This document shows positions 15,075-43,132 of a DNA stretch of 49,978 nucleotides, one piece after another; position 1 is the first letter of the stretch, and each line of letters begins with the position of its first letter. The stretch spans positions 1 through 49,978 of the forward strand of contig JACRFL010000014.1 in the NCBI GenBank assembly GCA_016217905.1, written 5' to 3'. Source of the stretch: Candidatus Kaiserbacteria bacterium. GTDB lineage: Bacteria > Patescibacteriota > Minisyncoccia > Phycocordibacterales > Phycocordibacteraceae. Both the position numbers and the translations under genes were made by a program. The notes beneath the pieces are model-generated. The model ran no database searches. It was not told the origin of the DNA and saw only the letters and a list, made by a program, of their open reading frames with translations.

Positions 15075-16031
15075 TCATGCCCGCGGCGAGCCGTATGATG
15101 CGGCCGTATAGGCTGCTATCGGAAGCGTATTCGATTCGGCGAACGTGAAGTGATGCGCGACCATCTCTCCCCACATGCGGTTGTACCAGAGCCGATACCC
15201 CTCGCTGCTCGGATGCATCCGATCTTTTGAATAATACTTCGCGGGTTCTTCGAGAAATGGGTTCGGGGAGAAGCCGAGACCCTCTTTGCCGGTGTAGAGC
15301 TCGACGAGCGGGACGTTCATCTTCGTGGTCACCCTTCTGAAGATCTCGTACACTCGATGCGTCCTCCGGCTCAACAACGAGCGGACGAGACGCGGGAATA
15401 TGGGCGCCCCGCCGAGATTCGCATAAAAGAGAACGATGATCTGGTGTTCGGCTCTCCGGATGGCTTCCTGCAGAAGGCGCGTGAGATCTTCCTCCAGCGC
15501 GCGCAATCCCGTATAGCGCAGGATGTCGTTCCCACCCGTGCAAATGATGATGAGGTCGAAGTTGCCCGGACCCGCGCGACGTATCTGGTCCGTCGCCTCC
15601 CTCACCACGGACCCGTTAACCGCCGTATTGACGATCTCGGTCTGCGGGAAATCGTGTCCGAGCCGTCCGGCGATCGTGTCTTCTGCCCTGTCGGCACCCG
15701 TGCCGTACGCGGCGCTATCGCCGATGATGAGAATCCGCTTCCCTCCCGGACGCGCCGCAGAGTACGCTTTCGGCCGCTGCCACACGAACCGAACTTCATG
15801 CATGAGGAACCAGATCATCTGCAGCACCTTCAACGTCGTGAAAAGCGACGCGAACTGCAGCAGGAGGATGCCAAGCGGGATGAGCGCGAACACCGCTTCC
15901 GTGCCGCCGGACGCGAGGCCGGACGCGACCGCTTCGGCATTCGCGACGGTTCTCGCGAGAGCGAAGGAGAAAGCGTCGGCGACAAGCCCCCCGAACGCAA
16001 TGGAGCTAGAGCGCAAAGCTTCCATCATCAT
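15075..16031 (-). CDS. membrane-anchored SGNH/GDSL hydrolase (copy 1)
   Basis: IIGDSAAYGTGA, TGGND, DRMHPSSEGYRLW (GDS, GxND, DxxH). Confidence 0.85.
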   Translation of the reverse strand: MMMEALRSSSIAFGGLVADAFSFALARTVANAEAVASGLASGGTEAVFALIPLGILLLQFASLFTTLKVLQMIWFLMHEVRFVWQRPKAYSAARPGGKRILIIGDSAAYGTGADRAEDTIAGRLGHDFPQTEIVNTAVNGSVVREATDQIRRAGPGNFDLIIICTGGNDILRYTGLRALEEDLTRLLQEAIRRAEHQIIVLFYANLGGAPIFPRLVRSLLSRRTHRVYEIFRRVTTKMNVPLVELYTGKEGLGFSPNPFLEEPAKYYSKDRMHPSSEGYRLWYNRMWGEMVAHHFTFAESNTLPIAAYTAASYGSPRA

Positions 16032-16764
16032 GCGCGAGAGCCAAAAGAACGGCTCCTCTCATCTGGTCGTACCAAACGCCGTACCCCGCGTCATTCGGAT
16101 GCGTCTTGTCGCGCGAGAAAAGGTTGCCGGCGGAAAGCTCGTCCGAATCCTCCCGGAACAACGGAACGAACATAATCCCCTCCTCGTGAGCGAGGTCTCG
16201 AAAGAGAATGTGGAACCGCCGCGCCCGCGCCTGGTAGAACCGCGAGAGCGGAAATAGATAGAGCGGCGCGAGCCCGGTGTTGTTCGGACCAACAAGAACG
16301 GTCTTCCGGCCGCATTCGCGGCAATCGGCAAGCACTCCCTTGAGCGTGCGGCCTACGCGCAAGAGCGGCCTGCCGTGCACGAGGTCTATGCCGCCGAGCA
16401 TGATGATGATGAGGTCGTACGCGCCGGGGCCTTTTGCGCGAACCGCCTCCCGGAGCACCTCTCGCGCATGCGAGAGATATCGTCCGGTCTTGCTGTTATT
16501 TTCTATATACGCGTCGGGGAAGTCCGCGCCGAGCCTCCCGACGACCGAGTAGCGACTGTGGCTCGTACCCGTACCGTACCCGGTGCTGTCGCCGATGAAG
16601 AGTATCTTCGTCGCGGCCGCCGGATCGATCCGTTCGAATTTCCGTACGGAGGCGGTCATCATCCGCGAGATGTTCAGGTGCCGCAGTATCCACACCGTGG
16701 TCAAAACGCCATAAAGCGCCAGGGCGAAGAGGAGCGCGAGGGTGATTGTCTGAAGGACGCTCAT
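16006..16764 (-). CDS. membrane-anchored SGNH/GDSL hydrolase (copy 2)
   Basis: FIGDSTGYGTGTS, MLGGIDL, DKTHPNDAGYGVWYDQM; overlaps copy 1 by 26 nt. Confidence 0.85.
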   Translation of the reverse strand: MSVLQTITLALLFALALYGVLTTVWILRHLNISRMMTASVRKFERIDPAAATKILFIGDSTGYGTGTSHSRYSVVGRLGADFPDAYIENNSKTGRYLSHAREVLREAVRAKGPGAYDLIIIMLGGIDLVHGRPLLRVGRTLKGVLADCRECGRKTVLVGPNNTGLAPLYLFPLSRFYQARARRFHILFRDLAHEEGIMFVPLFREDSDELSAGNLFSRDKTHPNDAGYGVWYDQMRGAVLLALAHDDGSFAL

Positions 16765-16782
16765 ATCGGTGGAATTCGTGGA

Positions 16783-18336
16783 TCAGTTTGGGATGATCCG
16801 GTACTGCTTTGTGCCGTTGACAAGCACAATGTCGCCCTCCGAAAGGCCCGAAACGATCTCGACGTAGCCGTCGACGCTGTGAACGCCGAGCGCGACGCGC
16901 GTGCGCACGGCGTTCGAGCCGACGAGCCGCAAGACCGATGCGTCGTCGCCAGCACCCGTCACCGCGGCGATCGGAACCGAGAGAGCGTGCGGCTTGTCGC
17001 CGGTCCGGATAAAGGCTCTCGCGGTGAGCCCCGGCCTAATGCGCGGATCGGCATGAACAAAGTACGCGGTCACTTTGAAATTTGGCACGCCGCTTCGGAG
17101 GGTGGCCGCCGGGTCGATGAGACCGAGTGTACCGTCGAAGGAGACGCCGGGAAACGCATCCAGCTCGATGGCCACGCTCTGGCCGACAGCGATCTCGGCG
17201 TAATGGATCTCCGGAACGTATCCTTCTATCTTGAGCGCCCCGTCCGAGATGAGGGATACGACCGGCATGCCGGCCTCGACCGTCTCGCGCGGCTTGGCGT
17301 TTACGGCCGTGACCACGCCGCCAAACGGCGCGACGATGCTTTGGTCCCGTATCTCGTCCTCAAACTCGGCGACCTGCGCCGACACGTTCCAGACGACCGC
17401 CTGCTGGGCGGCGATCGTCTCGCTTGTGGATCCAGCCTTTTCGAGCGCAAGCTGGTTTTGCGCGACGGCGACTGCCGCCTGCGCGGAGAGTACGCTTTGG
17501 TCGGCCGCCGTCAACGCGTTGTTCGCCGACGTGACCGAGGTACGCGCCGAAGCGATCGCCGTCTGGCCGGAGGCGGACTGCGCCGGGCCGCCCGCCGCAA
17601 GCAGGCGCGTCAGGCCGTCGAGAATCTCCGAAACGGTTTGCAGGTACGCGTGCATTCCCGCGCTTGCGGAGAGAAGGTCGCCCGCGCTCATGCCGGGAAG
17701 CGCGAGGATGCGCGCGCTCCATGACGAGAGGTCGACATCGATTCGGCGGCGCTCCGCAAGAACGCGCAGACCGAGTTGAGTATCGCTCGCGGGAATCGTG
17801 AGTCCTGAATTGGTCATCGACGGGTTCTGGACAAACTGGTCGATGGTGAACCGGACGGCGATATCGCTCGCGCTCTGCGCCGCGCGAAGCGCGTCTAAGA
17901 GCCCTTGGACGGCGTTCGCGAGGGCCGTCTCGCCGCTTGCCAGCCGCGCCTGCGTCACGGCGATCTGTTCGAGCCGCACGCCGTTTTTGAGGTCGCGCAA
18001 TCTCGCCCGCTCGGCTTCGAGCGTCGCGCGCACCTGGGCGAGCCGGTTCGTCAGCGTCGTGCGCTGTAGGATAGCGAGCGTCGTGTTCGTCGCCACCGAA
18101 TCGCCCACGACAACCGGGAGCAAGTCGACGATACCGCCGTTCTTAAACGCAAGGTCGACGGTGTCCGCCGCCTTCGTCTCGCCCGAGATGCTGACCGACG
18201 CGGCAAGGCGCCGGTACGCGACGATCTCGGGAACGAAAGAGTTCTGCGTTTGGCTCGCATTCACGTAGTACGCGGCTCCCGCCATGATTGCGATCATGAT
18301 GCCTACGACGCTTCCGATGAGAATCGAGCGGTTCAT
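16783..18336 (-). CDS. HlyD/MacA-like efflux periplasmic adaptor subunit
   Basis: N-terminal TM, biotinyl-lipoyl-like VDLAFKNGGIVDLLPVVVGDSVATNTTLAIL, long coiled coil, IVAPFGGVVTAVNAKPRETVEAGMPVVSLI, IRPGLTARAFI. Confidence 0.88.
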   Translation of the reverse strand: MNRSILIGSVVGIMIAIMAGAAYYVNASQTQNSFVPEIVAYRRLAASVSISGETKAADTVDLAFKNGGIVDLLPVVVGDSVATNTTLAILQRTTLTNRLAQVRATLEAERARLRDLKNGVRLEQIAVTQARLASGETALANAVQGLLDALRAAQSASDIAVRFTIDQFVQNPSMTNSGLTIPASDTQLGLRVLAERRRIDVDLSSWSARILALPGMSAGDLLSASAGMHAYLQTVSEILDGLTRLLAAGGPAQSASGQTAIASARTSVTSANNALTAADQSVLSAQAAVAVAQNQLALEKAGSTSETIAAQQAVVWNVSAQVAEFEDEIRDQSIVAPFGGVVTAVNAKPRETVEAGMPVVSLISDGALKIEGYVPEIHYAEIAVGQSVAIELDAFPGVSFDGTLGLIDPAATLRSGVPNFKVTAYFVHADPRIRPGLTARAFIRTGDKPHALSVPIAAVTGAGDDASVLRLVGSNAVRTRVALGVHSVDGYVEIVSGLSEGDIVLVNGTKQYRIIPN

Positions 18337-18350
18337 GCGCTACACTTTCA

Positions 18351-19079
18351 TTATAGGCCATACGCCCCTCCCTCCCGAAGGGAGGACGGCACGGCTGGGG
18401 GGTGCGTTTCTGTACCGACCGCCAACAGCGCACCGTCGCGAAGCTCGAGCACGCGATCCGCGAGCGCAAGCGATTCTTTCTCGTGCGTCACCATAATGAT
18501 GGTCGCTCCGCCGCGATGAATCTCGCTGAACATGTCGAGGACCTGCCGCGCGCTCGCGCTGTCGAGATTGGCGGTCGGCTCGTCGGCCAGGATATACGGC
18601 GGCTCGTGCGCTATGGCGCGGGCGATGGATACCCGCTGCTGCTGCCCGCCCGAGAGGCGCGCGGGTTTCGAAGAGAGGCGGTCGCCGAGTCCGACCCGCA
18701 CAAGCGCGGCGCGCGCGGCGGCCTCCGCGCGCGGGTAGCTCTCGCCGCGCATGATGAGCGGCACGAGTACATTATCGAGCGCAGTCATCTCCGGCATGAG
18801 GCCGTAGTCCTGGAAGACGTAGCCGAAACGCTCGAGCCTCAGATCGGTGCGCGCGTTGTGCGCAAGCGAGCTCGCGGGAATGCCGTCGACCGATACGACG
18901 CCGTCGTTTGGCGTATCGAGGAGGCCGAGCTGGTAGAGCAGGGTCGACTTCCCGCTTCCGGAACGACCGGTGATGACGACCATCTCTCCCGCTTTCGCCG
19001 CAAAATCCAAATGTTCGAAAAGCACGAACACGCTTTCGCCGGAGAGGAACTGCTTTTTGAGATCGCGTGCTTCAAGCAT
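18351..19079 (-). CDS. MacB/LolD-type ABC transporter ATP-binding protein
   Basis: [17 protein letters not shown] (Walker A), [14 protein letters not shown] (signature), [11 protein letters not shown] (Walker B). Confidence 0.95.
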
Positions 19080-19090
19080 GGGACGAGACG

Positions 19091-20389
19091 TCAGCGGCCG
19101 AGAACGGCATCCACGATCTCCTGCCGCAGGATAAGGCGCGCGGGAATGAAGCTCGCGAGAATGATGGCGACGACGAGAACGAGCGCTTTGACGACCGCTT
19201 CGATGAACGACACCGTCAAGATGCCGTTGCTGAACGGAAAGTCGATCGGGTACGCGATGAAGTACGGCTCGATGAGCGTGAAGAGCAGGAGCATGCCGAT
19301 TGCCGCGCCGACGATCGCGTAGAGCACCGATTGCGCGATGTAGCCGATCTGGATGCCGGAGGCCCGGATACCGATGGCCTGCAGGATGCCGATGGACCGG
19401 CGGCGCGTGATGATGTTTACGAAGACGAGGATGAAGATAACGATGAACGCGACCGCGAGCCCGATGCCGCCGAGAAACGATCCGAGCTTGTTGAATGTCG
19501 TGGCGAAATCCTGGAAGAATACCGGCTCCGACTCCTGCGCAAGCTGTATCTTGGCGTCGGCGTTGATCGCGGACAGCGCGAGCTGTCCCTTGACCGCCGC
19601 CGCGTCGGCCCCCGGCGCGAGCTTGATGGCGATTTCATTCACGCCGTCGTCGGTACGCCCAAGCAGGGCGCGCAGCTGCGCGTCGACCATGAACACCCGC
19701 AGATTGAGCTCCTGTATCTTGCTCGCCACGATCCCTTTCACGGTCATTTCGTGCTCGATGCCCCCCACGAGGATGCGCACCTTGCTCCCGACGCCGACGT
19801 TCGGGATCGGCGTGGATCCGGGAATGCCCGTGAGCGTTTTGTATCGCGCGAGAAGGCTCGTGCCGATCAGCACCTGATCGTAGTCGCTCGGCTGAAGGTA
19901 CCGGCCCTCGATGACGAGGCGCGAGAGGCCGGTCGTCGCGTCTTCGGCGACGGGATTAATGCCGGCGACATTCGTGGGGATCGTATCGGCCTCGTCCTGC
20001 AAGAGTAGCTTCCCGGCATAATTCCCCTCGAGCGCCCCCTCGGCCAGGTAGCGAGGCGAGAAGGACGCGATAGCGGGCAACGCGCGGAGGTAGGCCAGTG
20101 CGTCGGGAGAGTTCTGTATCGAGTCCTTCTCCCGATGATTCGTGAGGATGATGTCGCCGCTGTAGTACTGCAGACGCTCGCTGCGCAAGCCCTGCACGAT
20201 GCCGACCATGACGCCGCTCACGACGAGCAGGTTCAGGTACGTGAGGACCATGACCACGATGATGAGCAGACTCGTGCCGATGTTCGCGCGAACCTGCCGA
20301 TTGGCGATGAAAAATCCGACGCGTACGGCATTCCAGGCGCGCGAGGATGCGAGCCGACTACGGACGGGGACGTTCGGGGCGTCGGTCAT
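19091..20389 (-). CDS. MacB/LolC-type (FtsX-domain) ABC transporter permease
   Basis: N-terminal TM, large extracytoplasmic domain, C-terminal TMs with ITRRRSIGILQAIGIRASGIQIGYIAQSVLYAIVGAAIG. Confidence 0.9.
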   Translation of the reverse strand: MTDAPNVPVRSRLASSRAWNAVRVGFFIANRQVRANIGTSLLIIVVMVLTYLNLLVVSGVMVGIVQGLRSERLQYYSGDIILTNHREKDSIQNSPDALAYLRALPAIASFSPRYLAEGALEGNYAGKLLLQDEADTIPTNVAGINPVAEDATTGLSRLVIEGRYLQPSDYDQVLIGTSLLARYKTLTGIPGSTPIPNVGVGSKVRILVGGIEHEMTVKGIVASKIQELNLRVFMVDAQLRALLGRTDDGVNEIAIKLAPGADAAAVKGQLALSAINADAKIQLAQESEPVFFQDFATTFNKLGSFLGGIGLAVAFIVIFILVFVNIITRRRSIGILQAIGIRASGIQIGYIAQSVLYAIVGAAIGMLLLFTLIEPYFIAYPIDFPFSNGILTVSFIEAVVKALVLVVAIILASFIPARLILRQEIVDAVLGR

Positions 20390-21507
20390 CGCTCGTGCGG
20401 CGAGCGTGCCGCGTGTTCAAGGGGTGCCGCGACTTCGACCAGCCGCTCAAACGGCAGACGCGAAGTGCGTCCGCCGGGCGCGCGTCCGCGCCCGACGCGA
20501 AACAGAAACGCGATTCTTCCGCGTTCGACGCCGAATATGCGCGCGATCCCCTCGCTTCCCTCGACAAGGCGTTGCCGCTGCGCGCGCGAGAACATCCGCT
20601 TCCCCTCCTCCGTTTCCACGCTAAGAGAAAGCAGGATGACGCCGTTGAGCGGATGCAGACTGAGGCCTTCCCGGGTCGCGGCAAGCCACACGCGCTCGGT
20701 AAGCCGGCCGACGCGCACCCAGTCGGCAGGGGAATCCCCCGGGAGAAGCATGATGCCGTACCCGCCGCTCTCGCGGTAGATAATCCGCTGCTCGAGCGAA
20801 ATAAACCGGTGCAGGCCGCAGGCGATCCCGATCCGCATGAACCACCAGTGCCGCATGAGCTGCATGAATCCCCAGGTGAAGGGCGGCGCGGCGAGTGTCG
20901 GGAAATAGAAGCCGATGCGGCGGCGGTCGTCCTCGCGCCGCGTCCAATTGATATGCGAGAAGATGTAGGCGTGCAGCCGCTTGATGCTGAAGATGAGCTC
21001 GTCGTGAAGCGAGGCGATCGTCGCGAGTTTTGCGACCGACTGCCGGTCGTCGAGAAGCTTGATCTCGCCGAGCGCCCTGTCCTCGGTCGCGCTAAGGAGC
21101 GCCGCTCGCTCGGCGTCCGCGAGCGGCACACGGCGGTACGGCCTGCGGTTCGTAACGCGCGCGGCGAGGAAGTCCGCGAGCGGGTCGGGCGCGACGCTCG
21201 GGTCCTTCAAGAGCGCCAGCACCGCGATAAGCAACGGGCACGCCGGATCGGGGAAGTATGAGATCTCCGCGCGATACCCGCGCGTCGTCGCGGCGACGGA
21301 GGCATTTTCGATCGCAGCGCCAAACGACAGATAAGAGGCCTGGCTGTTGTCGCGGCTGCCGCTGTAAAGCGTGTGCAGCGGATCGTCGGACGATTCGTTC
21401 CAAAGCTCGATCGATTCGCCGCGCACGACCCACCGCCACGGCTGCGTATTGTCCCCCGAGGGCGCGCGAAGGGCCTGCTCGAGGACGAATCGAATATCAT
21501 CAGTCAT
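20386..21507 (-). CDS. Acg-like nitroreductase-family protein
   Basis: LEQALRAPSGDNTQPWRWVV, SYLSFGAAIENASVAATTRGY, VTNRRPYRRVPL, GYGIMLLPGDSPADWVRVGRLTERVWLAATREGLSLHPLNGVI. Confidence 0.8.
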   Translation of the reverse strand: MTDDIRFVLEQALRAPSGDNTQPWRWVVRGESIELWNESSDDPLHTLYSGSRDNSQASYLSFGAAIENASVAATTRGYRAEISYFPDPACPLLIAVLALLKDPSVAPDPLADFLAARVTNRRPYRRVPLADAERAALLSATEDRALGEIKLLDDRQSVAKLATIASLHDELIFSIKRLHAYIFSHINWTRREDDRRRIGFYFPTLAAPPFTWGFMQLMRHWWFMRIGIACGLHRFISLEQRIIYRESGGYGIMLLPGDSPADWVRVGRLTERVWLAATREGLSLHPLNGVILLSLSVETEEGKRMFSRAQRQRLVEGSEGIARIFGVERGRIAFLFRVGRGRAPGGRTSRLPFERLVEVAAPLEHAARSPHER

Positions 21508-21584
21508 GGAATCCGGGTTCCGAGTGCTCCGCGTGCGCCAACAGACATTACCGTCAGTGTACTACGGTCATACCCGTGCCTCTA

Positions 21585-21613
21585 TTGGAATATGCGACGG
21601 AGGTGGATATACT
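21585..21613 (+). promoter_or_regulatory. predicted promoter of the thiF-plsC-PPTase-ACP-feeM operon
   Basis: TTGGAA (21585-21590), 17-nt spacer, TATACT (21608-21613); ATG at 21620 sits near +1. Confidence 0.65.
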
Positions 21614-21619
21614 GTCGGC

Positions 21620-22492
21620 ATGGACTCGACATCGCTTCCGCCCGCGTGGTCATACCGCGAGGCGTTCGATCGCAATATCGGACTCATATCGGAAGAAAAT
21701 CAGGAGAAGCTGCACGCGACGCACGTGGCCATCGCGGGCATGGGCGGCGTGGGCGGCATCTACGCGACGACCTTGGCACGGCTCGGCATCGGGCGCTTCA
21801 CCATCGCCGACCCGGACCGGTTCGAGCTCTCGAACACGAACCGTCAGCAGGGCGCGAGCGCCCCGACCTTCGGCGCGAGCAAGCGCGCGACGATGGAACG
21901 GCTCATCAGAGAAATCAACCCCTCCGCAGAGATCCGGTCATTTGAGGCGCTCGCGAGCGAGAACGCCGGCGATTTCTTAGCCGGCGTCAAGATCGCGATT
22001 GATGGCATCGACTTCTTTTCTATCGCGCCTCGCCGCCTGCTCTACCGCGAGAGCCGCGCGCGCGGCATCCCCGTCCTCGGCGCGGCTCCCATCGGGTTCG
22101 GCTCTTCGATGATCAATTTCGATCCTGCCGGCGTAAGCTTCGACGATTATTTCGACATCCGCGACGACCTGACCGAGCAGGAGCAGATCTTCCAGTTTGC
22201 GCTCGGCCTCGCTCCGCTCCTGTTGCAGCGCCCCTATTTCGCGCCGAAAGGCATCGACTTTGTCGGCCATCGCGCCCCCTCCTCGGTGCTCGGTACGCTC
22301 GCCTGCGCGAACATGGTCGGCTGTGAGGTCTACAAGATCGTCATCGGCCTGCCCTACGAGAGAGCGCCCGTGTCGCGACAGTTCGACCCGTACGTGCGCA
22401 AACTCCGGCGCTGCACACTTCGCGGCGGCAATCGCCACCCGATCCAGCGGATTAAAAAGTGGTACTTTAAGCGCGTATTCGGCTTGGCATAA
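21620..22492 (+). CDS. ThiF/MoeB/E1-like adenylyltransferase-family protein
   Basis: HVAIAGMGGVGGIYATTLARLGIGRFTIADPDRFELSNTNRQQGA (Rossmann GxGGxG, DxD, N-RQ). Alternative start 21506. Confidence 0.9.
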   Translation: MDSTSLPPAWSYREAFDRNIGLISEENQEKLHATHVAIAGMGGVGGIYATTLARLGIGRFTIADPDRFELSNTNRQQGASAPTFGASKRATMERLIREINPSAEIRSFEALASENAGDFLAGVKIAIDGIDFFSIAPRRLLYRESRARGIPVLGAAPIGFGSSMINFDPAGVSFDDYFDIRDDLTEQEQIFQFALGLAPLLLQRPYFAPKGIDFVGHRAPSSVLGTLACANMVGCEVYKIVIGLPYERAPVSRQFDPYVRKLRRCTLRGGNRHPIQRIKKWYFKRVFGLA

Positions 22493-22595
22493 GGCTCCTC
22501 CGGCGCCGGGCCCTTATCCACCGCGGAACTTTTCGCGCCGCACAAGCGGGCGGCAGGTGGTATCTTGATAGGTAAGATCTTCCCGTCCCAGACAC

Positions 22596-23240
22596 ATGAT
22601 TCAACGTATTGGCAAGCGGATAGGATCTATCGCCGTCAACGGCTATTTCGCTACCACCCAGTTCGCGACAACGCCTCTTGATTGGTGGCTCTCGCGACGC
22701 ATCGGCCTCAGCGTGTCTATGCCGTCCGGCCTGTATGTGCCGAGCGGCACGCTCGTGCTCGCGAACCATCGCAGTCTACTTGATGCTTTTCTCGTGACCT
22801 TCCACCTCGGGAGGCAGAACTGGCTTACCGCCATCCCGGCCCGCTGCCCGCTGACTTCCGCCTACGCGCGCAGGCCGATTCTCGGCCCGATCTTGAAGAT
22901 GTTCGGGGCCTACGACATTGGCAATACCTCAATCGAGCGGGCCAAGAAACTCCTCTTCACGCGCGACCTTCTCGACCGCAAACATACGGTCATCCTGTTT
23001 CCCGAGGGAAAAATAGTCGAGAAAGGGGTCGTCGTGGATGAATTCCAACAGGGGGCGCAGATGCTTTTCGCGCACGATTACCCGACGCTTTTCGTGCGCC
23101 TGTCTGGCTTTGACACCCGCTCGTTCATCCATCCAAAGACGGTGACGAACGCCCGCATGGTCTACAGCGATATCATCCGCGGCGACGCGGCGACCAAGCT
23201 TGAACGGTTGCGCGAATTCTTCGGCGCCGAAGCCGCATGA
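22596..23240 (+). CDS. PlsC-like lysophospholipid acyltransferase-family protein
   Basis: LANHRSLLDAF (NHxxxxD) and ILFPEGKIVEKG (FPEG). Confidence 0.82.
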   Translation: MIQRIGKRIGSIAVNGYFATTQFATTPLDWWLSRRIGLSVSMPSGLYVPSGTLVLANHRSLLDAFLVTFHLGRQNWLTAIPARCPLTSAYARRPILGPILKMFGAYDIGNTSIERAKKLLFTRDLLDRKHTVILFPEGKIVEKGVVVDEFQQGAQMLFAHDYPTLFVRLSGFDTRSFIHPKTVTNARMVYSDIIRGDAATKLERLREFFGAEAA

Positions 23241-23851
23241 CCGGCGCCTTCCTGCGCTGCGCGAGCGACGACCGAACCGCTCTCCACGAGGCGGGAGTCG
23301 CCGCAGCACGCCTGGCAATCTGGAACGCGTCTCGCGAAACGAACCGCGGCGCGACGTTTGCGTCAATCAGTGTCAAAAAAGATGCTTCCGGCAAGCCGCA
23401 CGGGCGCGTCCGGGGAAGACGCCGCCCGGTCGCCGTTTCCATTTCTCATTCTTTCCCGTTCGCATTCGCCGCCGCCGAGGCGGCGGCGGCCGTTGGCGCC
23501 GATGTCGAGCGCATTCGCGATTTTTCGTCCGTTGTACGCGACGCCTTTCTCACCCCTGCGGAGCGGGAGATTGTCGAATCCGCGGCGCCCGACGAGCGCG
23601 CCCGCCTGCGCACTCTCTGTTGGTCGCTGAAAGAGTCCGTCCTAAAAGCTCTCGGGACCGGCCTCCGGGTGCACCCCGTTCGCGTCGACCTGACGCCCGT
23701 GCTGCGGGGCGATTCTCCCGCCCTGAGCGTGTGCGGCGTCCTACGGGCCGTCGAAGCGCGCTCCTGGCGGATCGGGGACGATTTTGTCGCCGCGGCGGTT
23801 GTGATTCCGATCCGTTCCGCGTATGATTGGCAACATGCCGCGAAACGCTGA
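23237..23851 (+). CDS. 4'-phosphopantetheinyl transferase (Sfp type)
   Basis: VAVSISHSFPFAFAAAEAAAAVGADVERI and LCWSLKESVLKALGTGLR match GxDxE and WxxKEAxxK motifs. Confidence 0.88.
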   Translation: MTGAFLRCASDDRTALHEAGVAAARLAIWNASRETNRGATFASISVKKDASGKPHGRVRGRRRPVAVSISHSFPFAFAAAEAAAAVGADVERIRDFSSVVRDAFLTPAEREIVESAAPDERARLRTLCWSLKESVLKALGTGLRVHPVRVDLTPVLRGDSPALSVCGVLRAVEARSWRIGDDFVAAAVVIPIRSAYDWQHAAKR

Positions 23852-24122
23852 TACGGAGTTGCGCGACACGGTCATCTCCCTCATAGCGGGTACGCTGAAG
23901 GTGCCTGCCGCCGATATTCGCGACTCGAGCAAGCTCGCCGATATCGCTCCAGACTCGATTGCGCTTTTCGAGCTCCTCGTTCGGCTCGAGAAAGAGCTCG
24001 GCCGGCGCGTAGAGTACGAAGAAATAGCGCACATCGAAACCGTCGGGGACGTCATTACATACGTCGCTAGTCTGCCCAACGATCAAACGGCAGGACCTCC
24101 CGCGCCAGAAACGCCGGCATGA
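23835..24122 (+). CDS. acyl carrier protein
   Basis: About 95 aa with DSSKLADIAPDSIALFELLVRLEKELGRRVEYEEIAHIETVGDVITYV; Ser of the DSI motif is the predicted phosphopantetheine site. Confidence 0.88.
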   Translation: MPRNADTELRDTVISLIAGTLKVPAADIRDSSKLADIAPDSIALFELLVRLEKELGRRVEYEEIAHIETVGDVITYVASLPNDQTAGPPAPETPA

Positions 24123-24718
24123 GCGCCTCTCCCCCGTCCTGCCGGCCCCTGCGCGACGAGGAGGAACGCCGCGCCGCTCGGGAGATCGTGCGGCGCGTAT
24201 ATGAGAAACAAGGATATGACGTGAACAGCGGAAGCATCGCACGCTATCTCGATGGTCCGGATGCCGCGACCTTCGGCCTTTTCTACCAGGATGCGCTCTA
24301 CGCCACCATTTCAGTTGTCGGCGACGGCGCGCAGGGCCTCCCAATGGATACCATTTATGCTGACGAACTTGCGCCCTGGCGCTCCGAAGGAAAAAAGCTC
24401 GCAGAGGTTGTGCAGTTTGCCGTTGATCATGACGTCTACGTAAAAATCTCCGGCAAAAAACCATCCCCGTTTGAAGCGGCTCCCCTGTTTGCGGCAGTGT
24501 TGTCCCATGCGCTTCAGAAACATATTGATTATTTATGCATTTCAATAAATCCAAAACATGACCGGTTTTACGGCATGCTTGGCTTCAAGCAGATCGGAGA
24601 ACTGAAGCACTATGCTTCCGTCAACGCGCCGGCCATCGCTCGCGCTTTTTATGTTCCCGATTGGAAAACACATCCTTTTATAGCAAGCTTCATGGACAAA
24701 GAAATGCTTCGCACCTGA
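24119..24718 (+). CDS. FeeM-like N-acyl amino acid synthase (GNAT/autoinducer-synthase fold)
   Basis: GLPMDTIYADELAPWRSEGKKLAEVVQFAV and YLCISINPKHDRFYGMLGFKQIGELKHYASVNAPAIARAFYV resemble the FeeM-domain pattern; ATGA overlap with the ACP gene. Confidence 0.8.
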   Translation: MSASPPSCRPLRDEEERRAAREIVRRVYEKQGYDVNSGSIARYLDGPDAATFGLFYQDALYATISVVGDGAQGLPMDTIYADELAPWRSEGKKLAEVVQFAVDHDVYVKISGKKPSPFEAAPLFAAVLSHALQKHIDYLCISINPKHDRFYGMLGFKQIGELKHYASVNAPAIARAFYVPDWKTHPFIASFMDKEMLRT

Positions 24719-24818: not shown

Positions 24819-25412
24819 CTCGGGTCGGGGCTACTTTTTCTGAAAAATGAAGTTGAGATAGTTCTTTGAGCGAGGCTTGAATGTCTCAAAGTAATCAAAA
24901 AAGTTTCTTTGCCAGACGATTGGGCTAAATGGATGTTAGCGGAAAATGAAAAAGATAAATCGGTGGAAGCCCAATCGTCTACGCTTTTTGCAGATAACAC
25001 AAAAGCCGAAATTTCTCTTTTGGATTCCAAGATTGAGAAGCTGATGAATGCCTATTTAGAGAACGCACTTTCACTAGAGGAATATCGAGATGCTAAAAGT
25101 GCGTTGGTTAACCAAAAACAGCTTCTCAAAGAGAAATTAGCGGCTTTTGAGCAAAAAACGAATAATCGGTTCGAACTTGCCGAAAAGTTTTTGAAATACA
25201 ATATAGAATTGGTAAACGAGAGTACAAATGAAGAAAAACTTCATTTGTACAAAAAAGTCGGTTCGAACTTTCAAATTAAGGATCGAACCGTCTTTTTTGA
25301 GCCACGCGGAACGTGGAAAAACCTTTTGGATTCGGGAATTTTTGGCGGGAATGCGTTTGTGTCGCGCCTGCGGCGCGACCCCATTTCGGCTTCCAATTCC
25401 GATTTCCAATTT
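24819..25412 (+). pseudogene. C-terminal remnant of a large serine recombinase
   Basis: Frame ...KNEVEIVL*ARLECLKVIKKVSLPDDWAKWML...LDSKIEKLMNAYLENALSLEEYRDAKSALVNQKQLLKEKLAAFEQ...NEEKLHLYKKVGSNFQIKDRTVFFEPRG; TGA at 24867; no resolvase domain; AT-rich relative to neighbours; runs into tRNA-Ser. Confidence 0.75.
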
Positions 25413-25502
25413 TGGCGGAGGCGGAGAGATTCGAACTCTCGAGACCCTTTCGAGCCTGCCGCCTTTCCAAGGCGGTGCACTAGACCACTATGCGACGCCT
25501 CC
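25413..25502 (-). tRNA. tRNA-Ser (GGA), CCA encoded
   Basis: Reverse complement ggaggcgtcgcatagtggtctagtgcaCCGCC-TTGGAAA-GGCGGcaggctcgaaagggtctcgagagttcgaatctctccgcctccgCCA; long variable arm. Confidence 0.95.
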
Positions 25503-41485: not shown

Positions 41486-42214
41486 ATGCAGAAACCGAAC
41501 GGGGAAGTGGCCGCCTACCCGATGCGCGTCAACAAATACCTCGCGCACGAAGGGGTTGCAACGCGGCGCGGGGCGGACGAGCTTATCGCCCGAGGGAAGG
41601 TACTGATAAACGGTCGCGTCGCGACTCTAGGCGAGAAAGTGAACAAAGGCGATACGGTCGAGCTCCGCGGGAATAGTTCTCCGAAGAAGTTTCTCTATTA
41701 CGCCTACAACAAACCCGTCGGGGTCATTACGCATTCGCCGCAATTTGGCGAGAAATATATCACGCAAGGCGCTGGATTGCCGAAAGACGTATTTCCCGTC
41801 GGCCGCCTCGACAAGGACTCGAGCGGGCTCATCATCCTCACCAACGACGGTCGCGTGACCGACCGTCTCCTCAATCCCGAGTACGACCACGACAAGGAGT
41901 ACCGCGTGCGCACCGCGGAGCCGCTCCGCGAGAGTTTTAAGAAATATATGGAGACGGGCGTCGACATCGGGGGGTATCTCACCAAGCCGTGTATCGTGCG
42001 CAAGACTGGACCCAAGAGTTTTAACATTACGCTGACCGAGGGCAAGAAGCACCAGATACGCCGGATGGTCGCCGCGCTCCACAACACGGTCGTCGAGCTC
42101 GAGCGCGTGCGTATATTGAATGTACACCTTGAGGATCTCGCGCCAGGCGCATGGCGCCTCATCCTTGGTGACGAACTCAAAACATTTCTCGCGCAAATCG
42201 GGATGGAAAATTAA
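41486..42214 (+). CDS. RsuA/RluB/RluF-family pseudouridine synthase
   Basis: S4 domain ([31 protein letters not shown]) and [18 protein letters not shown]...[13 protein letters not shown]. Confidence 0.94.
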
Positions 42215-42588
42215 TTTTCCTTCTTCTCGAAGTCGAGGCAGACGGAGTTGATGCAGTAGCGCTTGCCGCCGGCTTCCTGTGGACCGTCATCGAAGACGTG
42301 CCCCAGGTGCGCGCCGCAGGTCTTGCAGACGACTTCGGTGCGTGACATGCCGTGGCTCGCGTCCTCTCGCAGTTTGATGTGTTCGAGATTCGACGGGTCG
42401 GTGAAGCTCGGCCAGCCGGTGCCAGAATCGAATTTCGTGTCGGACGAGAAGAGTTCCGTCCCGCAGACGGCGCACCGGTACATCCCCTTCTCGTGATTGT
42501 CGACGTACGCGCCAGTAAAGGGCGCCTCGGTCCCGCCCTCGCGCGCAACGCGCTTAAGCTCTGGTGGTAGTTCTTGATCGGATTTCAT
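42211..42588 (-). CDS. msrB: peptide methionine (R)-S-oxide reductase MsrB
   Basis: [49 protein letters not shown]. Confidence 0.97.
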
Positions 42589-42589
42589 T

Positions 42590-43132
42590 TTAAGAATGAT
42601 TGGCTTTTAATAACTCGGCAAACTTCTCCTGAACCTTCTCCACCTTCGGGCTGATGATGAGATTGCAGTAGGCTTGCTCGGGGTTGCGCGCGAAGTAGTC
42701 TTTATGATAATTCTCCGCTTCATAAAACTCGGTGAGCGGCTTCACCTCGGTCACCACATGTCCGCCCTCCTTCGACGATGCTTCGACCTCGCGGATAAAC
42801 GCCTCCGCTTCTTCTTTCTGTGTGGGCGTCGTGTAGAGCACTATTGAGCGGTACTGCGTGCCGACATCGTTCCCTTGCCTATTCAGCGTCGTCGGGTCGT
42901 GCGTTGCGAAGAAGACGGTCAAGAGCGTACGGAAGGAGACTTTCGCCGGGTCGTATTCGATCCGTATCACTTCGGCGTGCCCTGTCTCCCCGCCGCACAC
43001 CTCGTCGTACATCGGGTTCGCCTTCGTCCCGCCAGCGTAGCCGGGCGCCACCGACACGACGCCGTCAAACATCCTGAACACCGCTTCCGTGCACCAGAAG
43101 CATCCGCCGCCGAATACTGCAATGTTTGTCAT
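42590..43132 (-). CDS. msrA: peptide methionine (S)-S-oxide reductase MsrA
   Basis: [57 protein letters not shown]. Confidence 0.97.

Follow-up and report, generated by a model that had tools for sequence, protein, structure and literature searches.

Introduction

FeeM is, to our knowledge, the best-studied N-acyl amino acid synthase (NAS) and so far known only from an uncultured soil microbe; its cloning from soil DNA of anonymous origin reportedly dates back 20 years. Here, a gene cluster encoding a close FeeM homologue was analyzed in a Candidatus Kaiserbacteria bacterium, a member of the Patescibacteria (candidate phyla radiation, CPR). It spans positions 15075–24718 of a stretch of 49,978 nucleotides from contig JACRFL010000014.1 (assembly GCA_016217905.1), which as a whole is called the window. 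We consider it fairly probable that the cluster specifies an acyl carrier protein (ACP)-dependent pathway to an N-acyl amino acid or acyl-oxazolone, with its own exporter and using scavenged acyl chains.

Pathways with related enzymes have been described in other bacteria. In Mycobacterium tuberculosis, TyzA acylates L-Tyr, TyzC of the nitroreductase superfamily desaturates, and the ThiF-like TyzB cyclises to C12-tyrazolone; the three separate enzymes are encoded together and the reactions were reconstituted experimentally (PMC10404671). TrzAS of mycolic-acid bacteria, also reconstituted, performs the same reactions with tryptophan and requires the ATP-binding Asp of its ThiF domain, and OxzAB of Pseudoalteromonas rubra likewise combines the three activities to form an acyl-oxazolone (PMC12856293). 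Operons with NAS, ThiF and nitroreductase genes are also known from the stieleriacine, thalassotalic acid and kyonggic acid clusters, which yield N-acyl dehydrotyrosines; they belong to other phyla and include methyltransferases, and no cluster-borne set of ACP, phosphopantetheinyl transferase and exporter is described in the sections considered (PMC12479983). In view of these three reports, the assumption of an earlier, sequence-only reading of the locus that its composition was undescribed had to be given up: NAS, ThiF cyclase and nitroreductase desaturase together are the known acyl-oxazolone pathway and not a new combination. The core is known, and the unusual part is its setting in a Patescibacterial host.

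Compared with Tyz, Trz and Oxz, the window cluster adds a close FeeM homologue, its own ACP and 4′-phosphopantetheinyl transferase (PPTase), a PlsC-like enzyme, a pair of GDSL hydrolases and a dedicated exporter. TyzA is distant from the window enzyme, longer and uses acyl-CoA, and ACP, PPTase, PlsC and a MacB/HlyD exporter have not been described in the tyz cluster. In OxzAB and TrzAS, the ThiF and oxidase parts are fused and the donor is acyl-CoA, whereas in the window both are separate proteins and the donor would be acyl-ACP.

Results

Gene content and extent of the cluster

The cluster comprises two divergent operons. The rightward operon is the enzyme half, with the order ThiF, PlsC, Sfp-type PPTase, ACP and FeeM; the leftward operon is the enzyme-plus-exporter half and runs from the nitroreductase through MacB-type permease, ABC ATPase and HlyD-type adaptor to two GDSL hydrolases, reaching position 15075. 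The features are listed below with expect values (E) or bit scores of profile matches and with amino-acid identities to the orthologues in REEB413 (G042; JAGWVF010000005.1), a genome of the same genus.

15075–16031, minus strand: GDSL/SGNH hydrolase 2 (PF13472, E 2.1e-21; 50% identity)
16006–16764, minus strand: GDSL/SGNH hydrolase 1, overlapping hydrolase 2 (PF13472, E 2.5e-17; 42% identity)
16783–18336, minus strand: HlyD/MacA-type membrane fusion (adaptor) protein (TIGR01730, 141 bits, above cut-off; 54% identity)
18351–19079, minus strand: ABC transporter ATPase of the LolD/MacB type (PF00005, E 1.8e-29; 68% identity)
19091–20389, minus strand: MacB/FtsX permease, 4-nt overlap with the nitroreductase gene (PF12704 and PF02687; 61% identity)
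20386–21507, minus strand: nitroreductase-superfamily flavin oxidase, ThiF-linked (FDO-A-like), proposed desaturase (PF00881; PRK14851; 52% identity)
21620–22492, plus strand: ThiF/E1-like adenylating enzyme, proposed oxazolone cyclase (PF00899, E 1.4e-36; PRK08223, 325.7 bits, above cut-off; 69% identity)
22596–23240, plus strand: PlsC-like acyltransferase (PF01553; NHxxxxD and FPEG motifs by inspection; 66% identity)
23237–23851, plus strand: Sfp-type PPTase (PF01648, E 1e-16; 44% identity)
23823–24122, plus strand: ACP with DSI-motif serine, the sole ACP found in the genome (PF00550, E 1.1e-9; 53% identity)
24119–24718, plus strand: FeeM-type N-acyl amino acid synthase (PF21926, E 1.6e-32; PDB 2g0b)
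24909–25352 (end approximate), plus strand: C-terminal relic of an integrase/serine recombinase, outside the pathway and marking the island border (phrog_95 integrase, positions 455–560 of 651, E 3.2e-6)
25413–25502, minus strand: tRNA-Ser(GGA), likely border or insertion landmark (ARAGORN; shared with the syntenic stretch in genome G013)

The sequence-only reading had delimited the locus to 20386–24718. Its six genes are present, each product scoring above the curated Pfam cut-off for the family named (PF00881, PF00899, PF01553, PF01648, PF00550, PF21926), and the 4-nt overlaps it had reported between the PlsC and PPTase genes (23237–23240) and between the ACP and FeeM genes (24119–24122) are real. 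The exporter and GDSL half had been missed, and the cluster is about twice as large as stated. The ThiF gene most likely starts at ATG 21620. Promoter and terminator scans of the locus gave signals no better than chance.

Conservation across Patescibacteria

REEB413 carries 11 of 11 genes in identical order with 42–69% amino-acid identity. Because the whole set is order-conserved in another genome, it is not a chance juxtaposition. Genome G467, from another family of the class, has ThiF, PlsC, PPTase, ACP, two MacB-type permeases, ABC ATPase, HlyD, FeeM and nitroreductase genes in rearranged order, and G778, from a third family, has PlsC, ThiF, ACP, PPTase, MacB, ABC, HlyD and FeeM. Co-occurrence in related genomes, which the sequence-only reading had named as a check, is supported by these three, with the nitroreductase present in REEB413 and G467. 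Each of the four CPR versions of the cluster retains both PlsC and ACP. The G778 cluster also encodes a 221-aa protein without Pfam match between ThiF and ACP (L078, 5076–5741).

FeeM-family genes overall occur in about 3% of the sampled Patescibacteria, and the FeeM profile gave any match in 6 of 384 genomes searched of the class. The complete cluster is rare, though ThiF beside a FeeM-like gene is common among the Patescibacterial carriers of this family. In at least eight other Patescibacteria (L023, L026, L059, L060, L061, L062, L064, L066), a ThiF-like gene adjoins a FeeM/autoinducer-synthase-like gene without the set of ACP, PPTase and exporter. Such pairs suggest that small acyl-transfer systems form a broader family in the CPR.

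The FeeM-type synthase and its closest relatives

The product of 24119–24718 reached 113 bits with PF21926 (cut-off 27), and its only solved relative was PDB 2g0b, the ACP-dependent FeeM protein of environmental DNA (eDNA) clone CSL12 (E 1.8e-79). Both proteins share 65–66% identity over the aligned length, with 66% over 181 residues, and the earlier assignment as FeeM-type synthase was borne out, with the alignment leading to FeeM and not to an unrelated GNAT family. Residue E96 aligns with the proposed catalytic Glu95 of FeeM (for the role of this Glu, see PMC4897644) and is invariant across all aligned CPR homologues. As in the FeeL/FeeM pairing of the fee cluster known from the literature, an ACP gene stands beside the synthase gene; from CSL12, the FeeM protein alone was compared.

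Conserved FeeM peptides were also scanned against 85,462 species genomes, which, leaving aside the window's own genome, retrieved only REEB413; the window's own or near-identical genomes may be absent from the set, and the pattern demanded exact peptides, by which moderately diverged relatives elsewhere would be missed. This result supports the CPR host suspected before. In the tree, the FeeM proteins of the window, REEB413 and CSL12 form one group (90/95), within which window and CSL12 FeeM pair at 88/89. We do not claim that CSL12 FeeM nests inside the CPR clade, as the alternative pairing of the two CPR rows was not rejected (AU p 0.297). The three proteins belong to the same small clade, and the closest genomic relatives found for the crystallised FeeM are Patescibacterial. 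A Patescibacterial donor for CSL12 FeeM is plausible.

That the window FeeM is closest to the founding enzyme of the fee cluster, and that PlsC and ACP persist together in the four CPR versions, would also suit a product as reported for that eDNA cluster, i.e. a fatty acid enol ester or another decarboxylated or esterified N-acyl tyrosine derivative. ThiF and nitroreductase would then make an activated or dehydro intermediate, to which PlsC would esterify another acyl chain delivered by the ACP. A review assigns the oxidative decarboxylation of N-acyl tyrosine to FeeG of the eDNA cluster (PMC8762209), but neither this separate CSL12 decarboxylase nor any other decarboxylase gene was recognisable in the window cluster; moreover, this route shares steps with the acyl-oxazolone pathway. 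We regard such an end product as rather unlikely.

ThiF, nitroreductase and the three-enzyme core

In the ThiF protein, the GMGGVG motif, N74-R75-Q76, K88 and D131 of the DGID motif are invariant in the alignment, and D131 would be the equivalent of D217 of TrzS, which itself lay outside the alignment. Among curated models, PRK08223 fits this protein best, and PRK14851, which describes a ThiF-nitroreductase fusion, comes second. One of its closest relatives of solved structure is TcdA (E 1.5e-15), an enzyme that brings about ring closure by activating the carboxylate of an amino acid.

The nitroreductase matched PRK14851 with 163.9 bits over model positions 328–667, i.e. the nitroreductase half of the ThiF fusion, while the Acg/Rv3131 model gave 149.5 bits, below its cut-off of 199. 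The former description as an Acg-like nitroreductase therefore holds for the family (PF00881) and not for the Acg likeness. An Acg-type (FDO-B) enzyme is ruled out as best match, as the ThiF-linked PRK14851 type (FDO-A) scores higher.

NAS-fold acyltransferase, ThiF-like cyclase and nitroreductase-superfamily oxidase are encoded together in the window, REEB413 and G467. Each of the three window proteins matches one part of a single PRK14852-type protein of 989 aa on the Nitratidesulfovibrio plasmid pDVUL01, which joins NAS (31% identity), ThiF (40%) and nitroreductase (26%) domains in one chain and is encoded near exosortase/PEP-CTERM-type genes. By the gene-fusion argument, the three activities would act in sequence.

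This fusion also bears on the idea that ThiF, being a member of the E1 superfamily, activates a ubiquitin-like or sulfur-carrier protein unrelated to acyl chemistry and that the genes are loose cargo of an island. A ThiS/MoaD-like gene was not recognised in the cluster, whereas ThiF adjoins or is fused with NAS and nitroreductase across lineages, including its pairing with NAS-like genes in the at least eight other CPR genomes mentioned above. Disfavoured by fusion and synteny, this explanation is very improbable.

Proposed pathway

We infer the reactions, their substrates and order, the acyl source, the end product and its export from the directly observed gene identities, catalytic motifs, synteny and co-occurrence and from the lack of genes for ketoacyl synthase, PlsX or a PF00501 ligase in the assembly. 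In the proposed N-acyl amino acid/acyl-oxazolone pathway, the PPTase would prime the cluster ACP, which would then be charged with a fatty acyl chain scavenged, not made, by the cell. FeeM would use the acyl-ACP as donor and place this chain on the amino nitrogen of an amino acid, tyrosine being the most likely one. Adenylation of the free carboxylate by the ThiF-like enzyme would allow closure of the oxazolone ring through the amide oxygen, and the nitroreductase-family flavoenzyme would desaturate the Cα-Cβ bond. The MacB/ABC/HlyD complex is predicted to export the product. Acyl esters may be the substrates of both GDSL hydrolases and of the PlsC-like enzyme, either for supply or for tailoring.

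Acyl supply in the host genome

The host assembly of 0.61 Mb is 95% complete. Profile searches found one PP-binding domain in it, that of the cluster ACP, and among 93 genus members (species) an ACP scored above the cut-off in two, the window genome and REEB413, both carrying the cluster. A pathway with its own ACP and PPTase, as had been proposed, is thereby supported. A full ketoacyl synthase occurs among the 93 members in REEB413 only, within a non-ribosomal peptide synthetase (NRPS)/polyketide synthase (PKS) locus. A survey of Patescibacteria reports no fatty acid synthesis, lipids recycled from other bacteria and rare biosynthetic clusters, and names acpP and a lysophospholipase gene as the two exclusive transfers into the group (PMC12455944).

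Several points weigh against the proposed pathway. In the host genome, neither a ketoacyl synthase nor an AMP-binding PF00501 ligase nor PlsX was matched, while control genomes were positive as expected in these searches and in that for the PP-binding domain. A route to acyl-ACP was thus not found in the genome, and how the ACP becomes acylated is the main gap; calling the pathway self-contained, as had been done, was too strong with regard to the acyl source. Furthermore, the characterised TyzA, TrzA and OxzA use acyl-CoA and not ACP, and stieleriacine-type clusters with ThiF and nitroreductase gave only dehydrotyrosines, with no oxazolone seen (PMC12479983). Also, no nitroreductase gene was found in the G778 cluster within a stretch of 20 kb, by which the end product may differ there or desaturation may be dispensable.

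No PF01553 gene other than the cluster PlsC was found in the genome. This, together with an exporter of the MacB/Lol superfamily, would be in line with a membrane aminolipid: FeeM would N-acylate and PlsC add a second chain, giving an ornithine-lipid-like compound that is brought to the surface by the Lol/Mac-type exporter in a cell unable to make phospholipid acyl chains. Ornithine lipids are indeed built by an N-acyltransferase and a PlsC-like O-acyltransferase. However, such a lipid would leave ThiF and nitroreductase without a function, a cluster present in only two of 93 genus members does not serve a housekeeping membrane lipid, and, unlike the enzymes of ornithine lipids, FeeM is not known to introduce 3-hydroxyacyl groups. 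We therefore consider an aminolipid improbable and retain the acyl-oxazolone pathway as the preferred reading.

Possible island origin

The cluster looks like an inserted island. Its guanine-cytosine (GC) content is 62.6% versus 56–59% in the flanks, and an AT-rich integrase relic lies in the stretch between FeeM and tRNA-Ser(GGA), which has a GC content of 42.5%. In G013, tRNA-Ser, HtpX, DUF192 and NrdJ genes stand together with the cluster absent, and in REEB413 the cluster adjoins the tmRNA gene. Direct-repeat attachment sites were not found at the island borders, and a search for viral carriers yielded no relative in IMG/VR.

The raised GC content and the integrase relic at one border might likewise be taken as signs of an assembly or binning artefact, i.e. 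foreign bacterial DNA in a CPR bin. Yet the cluster shares one contig with NrdJ, DUF192 and HtpX genes whose products are 57–86% identical to those of other genus members, and REEB413 has the cluster at genome-typical GC (57.5% versus 57.8% of the host). Contamination was rejected on account of the genus-typical flanks and the second carrier genome, and an artefact is hardly credible. In AT-rich G467, cluster GC is 34% versus 39.5% of the host; a GC content near that of the host in REEB413 and low in G467 suggests long residence rather than recent contamination.

Further loci

Another contig of the window genome (C15; L083, 8461–16518) carries a ThiF and nitroreductase pair of the Rv1355c/TrzS type (271.7 and 177.5 bits) and encodes a PaaK-like ligase, a HisC-like aminotransferase and a seven-transmembrane histidine kinase; no FeeM-type gene was seen at this locus. 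The PaaK-like ligase is only a candidate acyl source. The locus is conserved in REEB413 (L082, G042:C7, 8687–16111) beside an NRPS adenylation gene and a gene for a 2026-aa PKS-NRPS hybrid, genes that are rare for the phylum.

In G013, a stand-alone NAS gene (L018, 11006–11701, G013:C5) lies between tRNA-Ile and recG; its product is 37% identical to the window FeeM. It occupies the same chromosomal neighbourhood as the window cluster, and the partner genes are absent.

By inspection of translation starts, the products of 42211–43132 in the window resemble methionine sulfoxide reductases B and A. These putative reductases hint that the cell meets oxygen, a requirement for any desaturase that depends on O2.

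Discussion

More tentatively, one may ask whether the FeeM eDNA clone came from a Patescibacterium and whether N-acyl amino acids or acyl-oxazolones are produced from host lipids and exported by these reduced, epibiont-like bacteria, whose ACP would serve no other end; we hold this broader picture to be possible but somewhat doubtful. The cluster suggests a genomic home for FeeM. It also makes the use of an acyl carrier protein by a cell without fatty acid synthesis testable. Since the homologue FeeM already works in E. coli, this compact cluster can be tested directly by heterologous expression. If true, an exporter-linked acyl-amino-acid pathway holding the only ACP of the genome would provide a concrete candidate for a small molecule by which such a bacterium acts on hosts or competitors.

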